Positions 6,141 through 11,383 of a stretch of DNA of 64,000 nucleotides are shown in pieces. Under the pieces are notes generated by a model, which ran no database searches, was not told the origin of the DNA, and saw only the letters and a list, made by a program, of their open reading frames with translations. The stretch is taken from the NCBI GenBank assembly GCA_003599575.1, contig QZKV01000011.1, positions 1 to 64,000 of the forward strand. The letters are read 5' to 3'. Numbering within the stretch: the stretch's first letter is position 1; every line of letters starts with the position of its first letter. The translations under genes and the position numbers were made by a program. This stretch comes from Desulfobacteraceae bacterium (GTDB lineage: Bacteria > Desulfobacterota > Desulfobacteria > Desulfobacterales > Desulfosarcinaceae).

Positions 6141-6224
6141 GTGCGCCATCAACAAGGCCCATGAAAAGCATGAAGCGGCATGGGACGATTTTTTTCTGAA
6201 GGAACAAATCAGTTTTGTGTGCGC

Positions 6225-6271
6225 CATCCTCCAGTAAAAAGATTTTGAGCATATTTGAAGAAAGGAGGATG
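6225..6271 (+). promoter_or_regulatory. csp leader element able to mask its own ribosome binding site
   Basis: CATCCTCC at 6225-6232 is perfectly complementary to GGAGGATG at 6264-6271, which contains the Shine-Dalgarno sequence of the csp gene at 6277. The 8-bp stem would close a 31-nt, AU-rich loop and hide the ribosome site. The second csp gene (10826-11029) has the same arrangement with a 32-nt loop and a different anti-SD sequence that still pairs. A temperature- or protein-controlled translation switch is inferred. Confidence 0.55.
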
Positions 6272-6276
6272 TCGGC

Positions 6277-6477
6277 ATGAAAAACGGAACTGTAAAGTGG
6301 TTCAACGAAAAAAAAGGGTTCGGATTCATTCAACAGCAAGACGGACCCGATGTTTTTGTGCATCATTCAGCCATCAACGCTCACGGTTTTAAAAGCCTCA
6401 GAGAAGGCGACAAGGTCACCTTCGACGTCGAGCAAGGCCCCAAAGGCCCGTCCGCTGTAAATGTCACCGTAAGTTAG
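6277..6477 (+). CDS. Cold-shock protein, CspA family
   Basis: A 66-residue single cold-shock domain (OB fold) with RNP1 KGFGFI and RNP2 VFVHHSAI, the full length of CspA-type RNA chaperones. They bind single-stranded RNA and melt secondary structure in the cytoplasm. GGAGG lies 8 nt before the ATG. The leader is long and can pair with the ribosome site. A clear terminator follows at 6497-6539. A paralogue (67 residues, 10826-11029) and an RRM protein (6628) are close by, making a small cluster of RNA-binding proteins. Confidence 0.95.
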
Positions 6478-6496: not shown

Positions 6497-6539
6497 AAAG
6501 GGCACGCCACTCAGAACGATTGGGTGCCCTTTCTTTTTT
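6497..6539 (+). terminator. Rho-independent terminator after the first csp gene
   Basis: AAAGGGCAC (6497-6505) pairs with GTGCCCTTT (6524-6532), with an 18-nt loop, followed by CTTTTTT. It ends the csp transcript and separates it from the RRM gene. Confidence 0.8.
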
Positions 6540-6579
6540 GGGCTTCATCCATTTACGCGCGGCTTTCTGCCATTGCAAT

Positions 6580-6616
6580 CTTGTTGCGCCCTCAGTCACT
6601 ACTTCTCCACAACAAG
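6580..6616 (+). promoter_or_regulatory. Leader stem next to the Shine-Dalgarno site of the RRM gene
   Basis: CTTGTTG (6580-6586) is complementary to CAACAAG (6610-6616), whose last base begins the AAGGAGG ribosome site of the gene at 6628. The 7-bp stem has a 23-nt loop and a possible U-G extension into the site. It is weaker than the csp leader stems and may be chance. Confidence 0.3.
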
Positions 6617-6627
6617 GAGGATCTTTT

Positions 6628-6912
6628 ATGAATATTTATGTAGGCAATCTGTCCAACGACACCAAGGAAAGTACTTTGAAAACCCTGTTTGATGAATTTG
6701 GACAAGTCGATACCGTCAAAGTGATCATGGACCGCTTCTCGGGTCGCTCCAAGGGTTTTGGTTTTGTGGAAATGCCGAGCAATTCCGAGGCGGATCAGGC
6801 GATCCAGGCCTTGAATGGAAAACGCATCGACGGGAGCAACATTAAAGTCAACCCCGCCGATCCGGGCGGCAGAAGACGGACCAAGCGCGCCTTGAAAAAA
6901 AGAAGGTACTAG
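6628..6912 (+). CDS. RRM-domain RNA-binding protein
   Basis: A 94-residue protein. The ATG at 6628 has AAGGAGG 7 nt upstream, and an earlier in-frame start at 6520 would fall inside the csp terminator. It is a single RNA recognition motif with RNP2 IYVGNL at residues 3-8 and RNP1 KGFGFVEM near residue 45, then a short basic tail (RRRTKRALKKRR). Such small glycine-rich-like RRM proteins are known in cyanobacteria and some proteobacteria, often cold-induced. Its position straight after a csp gene fits a role as RNA chaperone. Confidence 0.93.
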   Translation: MNIYVGNLSNDTKESTLKTLFDEFGQVDTVKVIMDRFSGRSKGFGFVEMPSNSEADQAIQALNGKRIDGSNIKVNPADPGGRRRTKRALKKRRY

Positions 6913-10571: not shown

Positions 10572-10591
10572 CGCCCGCTAAATGGCCGGTT

Positions 10592-10716
10592 TGTTGAGTT
10601 TGTGGGTTGGTTGGGTTTATTGAGTTTATTGAGTTTATTGAGTTTGTTGGGTTTATTGGGTTTATTGAGTTTATTGAGTTTATTGAGTTTATTGATTTTG
10701 TTGGGTTTGTCGGGTT
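10592..10716. repeat. 9-bp tandem repeat array (TTGAGTTTA type)
   Basis: About 13 imperfect copies of a 9-bp unit (GAGTTTATT, variants GGGTTTATT and GAGTTTGTT) lie downstream of the radical SAM gene and upstream of the csp terminator. Because the period is 9, open frames across it translate into three-residue repeats; these are not genes. A short, decayed copy in opposite orientation lies near 40885-40945, so the family is dispersed. The rest of 10572-10825 holds only the csp terminator. Confidence 0.9.
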
Positions 10717-10825: not shown

Positions 10826-11029
10826 CTAACGCAAAGTAACGTTGACCGCCGAGGGGCCTTTGGGGCCTTGCTGGATGTCGAAAGTCACTTTATCGCCTTC
10901 ATTCAGAGATCTGAAACCGGTCGTGTTGATACCGGAATGATGAACGAAAACATCCGGTCCGCCGTTTTCCTGCTCGATGAAGCCGTAGCCTTTGCTGCTG
11001 TTAAACCACTTCACTGTACCGTTCGGCAT
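10826..11029 (-). CDS. Cold-shock protein, CspA family (second copy)
   Basis: A 67-residue cold-shock domain protein, closely similar to the one at 6277-6477 (shared [34 protein letters not shown]). RNP1 is KGYGFI. The start at 11029 is fixed by parallel with the first copy: GGAGG is followed by nine bases and ATG; longer in-frame starts (11038, 11131) are rejected. The leader has a matching ribosome-site-masking stem. A terminator follows. Likely an RNA chaperone; the two copies may respond to different conditions. Confidence 0.95.
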
Positions 11030-11034
11030 GCTAA

Positions 11035-11084
11035 GCATCCTCCTTTCAAATAAAATTTCCCAAAGCTTCAAACTTGAAGGATGC
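11035..11084 (-). promoter_or_regulatory. csp leader element able to mask its own ribosome binding site (second copy)
   Basis: On the minus strand GCATCCTTC (11084-11076) pairs with GGAGGATGC (11043-11035), which contains the Shine-Dalgarno sequence; eight pairs are Watson-Crick and one is G-U. The loop is 32 nt. The anti-SD segment can instead fold locally into CTTCAA-GT-TTGAAG (11079-11066), so two exclusive folds are possible. This is the arrangement expected of an RNA switch; behaviour is inferred. Confidence 0.55.
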
Positions 11085-11302
11085 CGCATGGATCTTGCAG
11101 GACTTTCCTTAAGCACGAAACTGTCCGTCAATGAAGAACGGGCCTTTATTGATTAAAAGGACTTTTATCATTTTTTTTGATGATTGCAAGAAAATTTATC
11201 ATTCAACGGCCGGTGGTGCCCAGAATTACCTGAAAACCTTGAAGGGGAGCTGCAGGAGGGCTTAAGCTTAGTACACATATTCCTAATATTATGACCAACT
11301 AT

Positions 11303-11383
11303 GCGGGGTCGGGGTCGGTATCGGGGTCGCAATCGAATTCGACTATCGATGCCGATTCCGATACCGACCCCGAGGCCGACCAA
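11303..11383. repeat. Imperfect hairpin built of GTCGGG-type hexamers
   Basis: TCGGGGTCGGTATCGG (11309-11324) recurs inverted as CCGATACCGACCCCGA (11358-11373): a perfect 16-bp inverted repeat. Its centre contains the palindrome TCGAATTCGA. The arms consist of repeated hexamers like GGGGTC and GGTATC. The structure sits in the 466-bp gap between the csp start and the end of nadE. The rest of that gap holds the csp leader and an AT-rich stretch with no recognised gene. Confidence 0.85.

Follow-up and report, generated by a model that had tools for sequence, protein, structure and literature searches.

The two cold-shock protein genes of the window, csp1 and csp2, are each preceded by a copy of a conserved 5' leader RNA of about 125 nt, which we interpret as a two-state translational switch. 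The window is the whole stretch of DNA analysed, 64,000 nt from a Desulfobacteraceae bacterium (GenBank: GCA_003599575.1, contig QZKV01000011.1). Alignments of related leaders and predicted folds make this interpretation somewhat more probable than its negation, and we estimate its probability at roughly 0.57. The original prediction, made from the csp2 region at 11035-11084, which falls in the 3' half of the leader, was a helix between the Shine-Dalgarno (SD) sequence and an upstream anti-SD, here called P3. It is confirmed in part: judged from the related leaders, the helix is real, and it gains its meaning only as a part of a conserved csp leader with two folds, of which it is one.

In the proposed mechanism, the SD would be free in state 1, which would consist of the hairpin P1 and a long irregular hairpin, PA/PB, tipped by P2. 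A further helix, P0, would loosely close this state by pairing the 5' end of the transcript with UUGA. Within PB, an SD-like box further upstream (CUGAAGGA; in csp2, CUUAAGGA) would sequester the anti-SD UCCU. The strands of state 1 are transcribed ahead of the SD, so this fold should already be in place when the SD emerges. In state 2, PB and P2 would open, and the anti-SD segment would form P3, which closes the SD, by pairing with the SD together with the bases that follow it as far as the start codon. The message would be translated while state 1 lasts and shut once P3 replaces it. Cold may slow this exchange, or Csp that binds single strands may tip it, which could lead to cold induction or feedback.

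The features of both leaders are listed in Table 1. The leader directly adjoins the start of a CspA-type gene as its 5' UTR. In the whole genome there are eight matches to the cold-shock domain (Pfam: PF00313), seven of them above the cut-off, and the leader is missing at four of these eight genes. The csp2 frame is open into the leader in the window, and an N-terminal extension of csp2 was considered; this frame is open in 19 of 75 related leaders, compared with 36 and 16 for two control frames, so it is not conserved coding sequence. Around the two genes, about 13 tandem copies of the 9-mer GTTTATTGA lie at 10589-10708, between the upstream gene and csp2. An imperfect inverted repeat with 33-nt arms (82% complementary, 9 nt apart) occupies the intergenic positions 11304-11378, upstream of the csp2 promoter. 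The reading frame at 6520-6912, directly downstream of csp1, presumably encodes an RRM RNA-binding protein.

Table 1. Positions of the csp genes, leader helices and putative promoter elements in the window. R1 and R3 are covariance models of state 1 and of P3; A1 is a sequence-only alignment of 75 leaders; MFE, minimum free energy structure.
Feature	Position	Strand	Evidence or remark
csp2 coding sequence	10826..11029	-	start ATG 11027-11029; 67 aa cold-shock protein; PF00313 102.9 bits
csp1 coding sequence	6277..6477	+	66 aa cold-shock protein; PF00313 100.9 bits
csp2 leader, whole conserved element	11030..11154	-	R1 match 11027-11154 (ATG included), 89.8 bits, E 6.4e-17; R3 81.9 bits
csp1 leader, the other copy of this element in the window	6147..6276	+	R1 match 6147-6279, 74.6 bits, E 2.3e-13
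P1 5' strand GGCCCGU	11138..11144	-	A1 helix 1: 83.3% of cells paired, two-sided change in 6/6 pairs; tree null 0/500
P1 3' strand ACGGAC	11123..11128	-	P1 pairs only in part in the csp2 leader
PA 5' strand AGUUUCG	11116..11122	-	A1 alignment (see text); MFE of csp2 leader without SD
PA 3' strand UGAAGCU	11064..11070	-	alignments; MFE
PB 5' strand GCUUAAGGA, SD-like box predicted to capture the anti-SD	11106..11114	-	A1 alignment (see text); MFE without SD
PB 3' strand UCCUUCAAGU, anti-SD, predicted to be sequestered here while the SD is free; a C is bulged	11072..11081	-	
P2 5' strand CUGCA	11096..11100	-	A1 alignment; MFE
P2 3' strand UGCGG	11084..11088	-	A1 alignment; MFE
P3 5' arm, anti-SD GCAUCCUUC (5' arm of the original prediction)	11076..11084	-	
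P3 3' arm GGAGGAUGC with SD (3' arm of the original prediction)	11035..11043	-	
Shine-Dalgarno AAGGAGG	11039..11045	-	
CAUGC, predicted to pair with GCAUG 11027-11031 (start codon)	11086..11090	-	full-length csp2 MFE; prediction for the csp2 leader only
Hairpin CTTCAA-GT-TTGAAG (originally proposed alternative)	11066..11079	-	present in csp2; not conserved
csp1 PB 5' strand CTGAAGGA	6196..6203	+	
csp1 PB 3' strand TCCTCCAG	6227..6234	+	
csp1 P3 5' arm CATCCTCC	6225..6232	+	
csp1 P3 3' arm GGAGGATG with SD	6264..6271	+	
Putative -35-like TTGCAA	11184..11189	-	corresponds in position to a conserved CTTGCTTT-like block that precedes (A)ATCAAT in relatives
Putative -10-like TAAAAG	11162..11167	-	TATWAT-like block in relatives

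The arms of P3 lie in csp2 where they had been predicted, with GCATCCTTC pairing with GGAGGATGC over a 32-nt loop in nine pairs, one of which is U-G. Nearly the same geometry is found in csp1 (CATCCTCC with GGAGGATG, 31-nt loop). Taken alone, the SD pairing of either window leader is no better than chance: when the upstream part was dinucleotide-shuffled 1000 times, the longest SD-covering helix of csp2 (ten pairs with wobbles) was reached in 96 shuffles, and that of csp1 (eight pairs) in 329 of 1000. Among the related leaders, the mean longest SD helix was 7.22, against 7.18 when shuffled (96 of 101 leaders; the five without an SD pattern were dropped), and the probability of an unpaired SD was alike in real and shuffled leaders (0.24 and 0.25 at 15 °C, 0.29 and 0.28 at 37 °C). 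The probability of pairing between SD and anti-SD was 0.37-0.40, compared with 0.05 when the upstream part was shuffled, which does not count as evidence as this shuffle displaces the anti-SD. It had been argued that two independent copies make chance less likely. The shared design holds, but the csp1 and csp2 leaders are homologous and hence not independent, and neither beats its shuffles alone.

Related leaders were taken from 117 csp loci in 30 genomes of the family, which are part of the matches listed, and from 80 named loci. Four of the 197 loci have no csp by the pattern used, and 184 distinct leaders were parsed. A loose pattern of a T-rich box plus SD was passed by 116 leaders, about 20 were added and two dropped by eye, and leaders with less than 145 nt upstream were dropped. 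Of the 133 leaders that remained, 101 are non-redundant at 88%. Alignment A1 was built from sequence only with 75 leaders hand-picked from these 101; the 26 left out mostly have irregular spacing, and the selection favours regular members with box and SD. Alignment A2 consists of 101 rows from 100 loci aligned to the state-1 covariance model R1, and hence leans towards P1, PA, PB and P2; P0 and P3 are not part of R1. In addition, a P3 model (R3) and a sequence-only model (R2) were used.

Across these relatives, the alignments indicate that pairing at the specific positions of P3 exceeds chance. On A1, 77.3% of the P3 cells are paired, compared with 35.2-55.2% in slid controls. The covariation is 0.194 versus 0.164±0.009 in shuffles (reached by 1 of 500), and there are 29 double-change cells versus 23.5 (reached by 53 of 500). 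On A2, whose model does not contain P3, 77.2% of the cells are paired versus 33.8-45.1% when slid, with 40 double-change cells versus 22.7±4.1 in shuffles (0 of 500). The expectation that pairing would be better than in shuffled leaders thus fails for its raw strength and holds for its position-specific conservation and, moderately, for its covariation in relatives. A functionless chance complementarity between a pyrimidine stretch and a strong SD would agree with the two window leaders, which singly fall within their shuffles. The conservation and covariation at these positions in relatives and the specificity of the model for csp genes contradict it. We regard chance as hardly credible; as the whole explanation it is ruled out on the relatives, though not from the two window leaders alone.

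The upstream domain pairs more consistently. On A1, after one mostly mismatched inner position of PB had been left out, P1, PA, PB and P2 together have 84.6% of 1708 cells paired (37.0-53.8% when slid) and two-sided change in 20 of 23 pairs. They show 128 double-change cells versus 51.0±5.9 in shuffles and a covariation of 0.320 versus 0.214±0.008; none of 500 shuffles reached any of five measures. PA is paired in 93.0% of the cells (slid 32.6-76.5%, the highest value at slide +3) with 30 double-change cells versus 8.9, PB in 92.2% (slid 25.7-64.3%) with 14 versus 4.9, and P2 in 71.2% (slid 44.3-56.3%), a fraction reached by 6 of 500 shuffles, its double changes being reached by 3 of 500. On A2, PA is paired in 87.9% of the cells (slid 31.4-74.8%) and PB in 90.3% (slid 29.0-54.9%), except that PB slid by +1 gives 95.1%, with 206 of 600 cells and no double changes. 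P0 is paired on A2 in 79.4% of the cells, compared with 16.4-51.2% when slid, and has 26 double-change cells versus 10.5 in shuffles (0 of 500), though a slide of -2 yields 32, above its own value.

RNAalifold, whose consensus was empty on the first local alignments, yields P1, PA and PB unprompted on A1 with a weak consensus energy of -3.81 kcal/mol; it chose neither P2 nor P3. We also ranked column pairs by covariation in the 101 leaders, with a background correction, as the uncorrected ranking is dominated by conserved G-U columns. The pairs 59-105 (PA), 35-49 (P1), 65-99 (PB) and 55-109 (PA) were ranked 2nd, 3rd, 6th and 19th, in a ranking whose top includes many column pairs outside any helix.

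As a tree-aware null, substitutions were redistributed on the FastTree tree of A2 in 500 simulations. The double-change cells were reached in 0 simulations for P1, 1 for PA, 8 for PB, 10 for P3, 14 for P0 and 43 for P2. The corresponding counts are 0 (P1), 0 (PA), 3 (P2), 94 (P0), 183 (PB) and 367 (P3) for the fraction paired, and 0 (P1), 0 (PA), 12 (P2), 42 (P0), 63 (P3) and 71 (PB) for the covariation score. This null begins at an already complementary ancestor, and conserved complementarity itself is probed by the slid controls instead. On these comparisons we grade P1 and PA as firm, PB as fair to good and P0, P2 and P3 as moderate.

According to the alignments, P1, PA and PB, with the weaker P0 and P2, would together sequester the anti-SD, so that the SD stays accessible. 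State 1 and P3 share the anti-SD columns, and the two predicted folds are mutually exclusive, one of them occluding the SD. P3 thus appears as a conserved exclusive alternative to state 1, with moderate covariation. A competing fold that captures the anti-SD had been proposed from the start, in the form of the hairpin CTTCAA-GT-TTGAAG. The proposal was right in kind and wrong in detail: a competitor exists, but the conserved one is the longer P1/PA/PB domain with the weaker P0 and P2. The six pairs of the hairpin are complete in one of 75 leaders, the window's own, and 61 of 75 keep three or four, so we rejected it as a conserved alternative.

The better covariation in P1 and PA, and then in PB, would also be expected if only the state-1 fold were selected, either for binding Csp or another protein or for protecting the message, with the SD pairing as its by-product. 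Such a by-product could arise from the likeness of the PB box CUGAAGGA to the SD AAGGAGG, by which a partner of one can pair with the other as well, and the P3 core, CCU with AGG, may indeed be a by-product of PB. The absence of P3 from the RNAalifold consensus and the raw SD pairing, equal to that of shuffled leaders, point the same way. However, the outer pairs of P3 involve neither the SD nor PB, and on A1 they are complementary in 78.0% of the cells, compared with 24.8-55.2% when slid and 75.3% when shuffled among sequences (1 of 500), with 24 double-change cells versus 19.3 (reached by 44 of 500). On A2 the outer eight pairs have 40 double-change cells versus 18.7 under the tree null (reached in 10 of 500 simulations; fraction paired in 91, covariation in 20). 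Furthermore, in some distant relatives (L268 and L272) changes in the anti-SD arm look, by eye, to be matched by changes in the bases that precede the start codon. We consider selection on state 1 alone doubtful, yet a reading to be taken seriously beside the two-state switch.

A covariance search had been named as a check of the original prediction, and covariance models do find many further copies upstream of csp genes, in the own genome, the order and the phylum. R1 has five matches in the own genome at E<=1. Four are below 1e-12, each ending at a csp start codon, and the fifth (E 0.155) has no csp. The searches of larger groups, which overlap in genomes, gave R1 matches in 126 of 146 genomes of the order (E<=0.01) and in 50 of 395 genomes of the phylum (E<=0.001, stricter filters, eight candidates scored per genome), 35 of these 50 lying outside the window's order; R3 was found in 31 of 40 genomes of the class, all 40 of the same order. 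At E<=0.01 a match is present at 69 of the 117 family csp loci (62 in L001-L100 and seven in L101-L117) and at 74 of the 80 named loci; some of the loci tested had themselves gone into the model, 35 from the family set of 117 and 40 from the named set of 80. Among 55 best-hit loci from the order and phylum searches (L203-L257), 53 have a csp behind the match and two are cut by the contig end. Among 20 chosen regions with weak phylum hits (E 3.7e-9 to 8.8e-4), 18 have a csp. The weak hit region L273 has a reading frame other than csp, which we take to be of the universal-stress type. L274 is leader-like, with PA- and PB-like motifs and no csp, and is possibly a remnant.

The csp2 leader scores lower with R3 than with R1 (Table 1), while the csp1 leader reaches 76.7 bits with R3 versus 74.6 with R1. 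At 18 weakly matching loci, R3 was more than 1 bit better than R1 in 12, worse in two and within 1 bit in four. The sequence-only model R2 scored below R3 on all 70 loci compared and below R1 on 66 of them (R2 was higher at L268, L271, L272 and L275), a comparison that is no proof of structure as the information content differs (0.467 versus 0.59 bits per position). It omits L205, L219 and L223, which looked like copies of A1 members, and may retain other near-copies.

Some loci stand apart. L130 and L165, whose genome titles name Aminicenantes and Acidobacteriota, have one copy each of leader plus csp, by transfer, contamination or mislabelling, and we do not claim a spread beyond the phylum from them. 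L264 and L191 (record title Desulfacinum hydrothermale) carry two tandem csp genes, each with a leader and an extended P0 (CUCAAG with CUUGAG); they are awkward for a purely cold-sensing role, as the species name suggests a warm habitat. Other csp classes in the same family (L020, L021 and similar) have different conserved leaders, for example one with GACAGGAGGACAATGCT where the start codon is TTG and another with AAGGAGGCTGCAGAA where it is ATG.

In 42 of the 101 leaders an (A)ATCAAT motif could serve as an anchor. Counted from this motif, a CTTGCTTT-like block is found around -35, and a second block, similar to TATWAT, around -10. We infer that the transcript probably begins at (A)ATCAAT, and that of csp2 would be expected to start at about 11154-11156. 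If this start is right, the leader makes up the entire 5' UTR, and its very first bases are engaged in P0. A wider reading, which we offer tentatively and consider unlikely in its entirety, is an order-wide csp RNA switch of the Desulfobacterota that reaches other parts of the phylum and has both exclusive folds under selection. The 5' end, fixed by the conserved promoter, would close the open fold through P0, and the internal SD mimic would hold the anti-SD until the real SD emerges. Csp itself would read the balance, so that the leader would report free RNA-chaperone capacity and not temperature as such.

In folding predictions with the SD and everything downstream removed, PA-PB is part of the MFE structures of both window leaders at 15 and 37 °C. 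In the full-length leaders the SD is closed in the MFE structure, and in csp2 the start codon is paired too. Over the 101 leaders, the mean PB probability at 15 °C is 0.65 without the SD and drops to 0.35 once it is added; at 37 °C the two values are 0.63 and 0.29. The mean P3 probability in the full leaders is 0.39 at 15 °C and 0.41 at 37 °C. P0 is rarely predicted (0.20-0.23 in leaders without the SD, 0.05 in full ones).

The temperature predictions disagree. The mean energy difference E1-E2 between the two drawn structures is -0.01, 0.70, 1.38 and 2.19 kcal/mol at 5, 15, 25 and 37 °C, respectively, so the gap shifts towards state 1 on cooling, and the helix probabilities likewise lean to state 1 in the cold. 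The opening of the SD does not: it is costlier in the cold (mean 10.5 kcal/mol at 5 °C versus 5.1 at 37 °C), and the ensemble probability of an unpaired SD grows with temperature, with 0.23 at 5 °C and 0.34 at 45 °C. A simple equilibrium thermometer that opens in the cold is therefore not supported, and we would rather favour a switch that is governed by kinetics or tipped by a protein. The rise in SD accessibility on warming is what an RNA thermometer opened by heat, in which P3 melts and translation increases, would predict. Yet accessibility changes little, support is stronger for the upstream domain than for P3, and one would not expect heat to induce a csp, which makes a heat thermometer very unlikely.

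Transcription attenuation was considered as well, with P1 and the U run of the 5' strand of PA acting as an early terminator that is relieved by PA formation or by antitermination through Csp. Read by eye, csp1-type leaders do have GATTTTTTT after P1, but the A1 consensus of this tract is GGTTTCGTTC, a poor terminator. Attenuation also leaves P3 and the conserved spacing to the ATG unexplained, and we judge it quite improbable.

An Rfam scan of both strands of the window at the gathering score gave no match except a tRNA. Six whole loci compared with the cspA thermosensor family (Rfam: RF01766) all stay below its gathering score of 78 bits: L142 has 49.5, L121 45.9, L002 44.9, L143 43 and L005 26.7 bits, and L162 gives no match. 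By eye, in one alignment, the agreement lies mostly in the coding part, and the leader alone (L142 600-803, a single leader other than the window's own) gives no match up to E 10. Given the sub-threshold scores of whole loci and no match for the L142 leader alone, we rejected membership of the leader in RF01766. The sections of PMC11109978 covered here hold no csp, and their single Desulfo passage concerns another motif. In the literature searched, which is a part of the whole, we found no description of this leader.

The known examples of csp leader switches come from a few model bacteria, and the generality of a two-fold design is at stake. The leader described here occurs in 126 of 146 genomes of the order and stays below the Rfam 15 thresholds in the tests made. 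With an alignment that shows covariation for competing folds, the candidate switch is amenable to simple compensatory mutations. The csp genes of environmentally important sulfate reducers thereby gain a concrete regulatory hypothesis.

In the ROSE and fourU RNA thermometers a hairpin occludes the SD. The predicted P3 fold resembles them in this respect; unlike them, the leader has a second, better supported competing domain, and the window has no Rfam match at the gathering score other than a tRNA. In Listeria (cspA) and Staphylococcus aureus (cspB and cspC), csp messages are under RNA thermoswitches according to the part of a review drawn on here (PMC8155936), a likeness to a csp message under an RNA switch by description only. 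For Bacillus subtilis cspB and cspC, the portion of PMC8307031 used reports two conserved cold-shock boxes in the csp 5' UTRs. In cspC, suppressor mutations map within a box or close to it, and the mutant region tested gave raised expression (PMC8307031). The likeness to conserved csp 5' UTR elements, described there as boxes, is again by description only. In Escherichia coli, transcription of cspA at low temperature lets the message take an open form, with a less accessible form at 37 °C, as stated in the sections of PMC9947658 covered. The cspA 5' UTR thermosensor (Rfam: RF01766) is, on that partial account, like the candidate switch in being a csp leader with two forms that differ in ribosome access. 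It is unlike it in that, in the form present at 37 °C, its 5' UTR is base-paired to a segment of the coding region (PMC9947658, same sections), whereas P3 would be a local SD helix that ends at the ATG.
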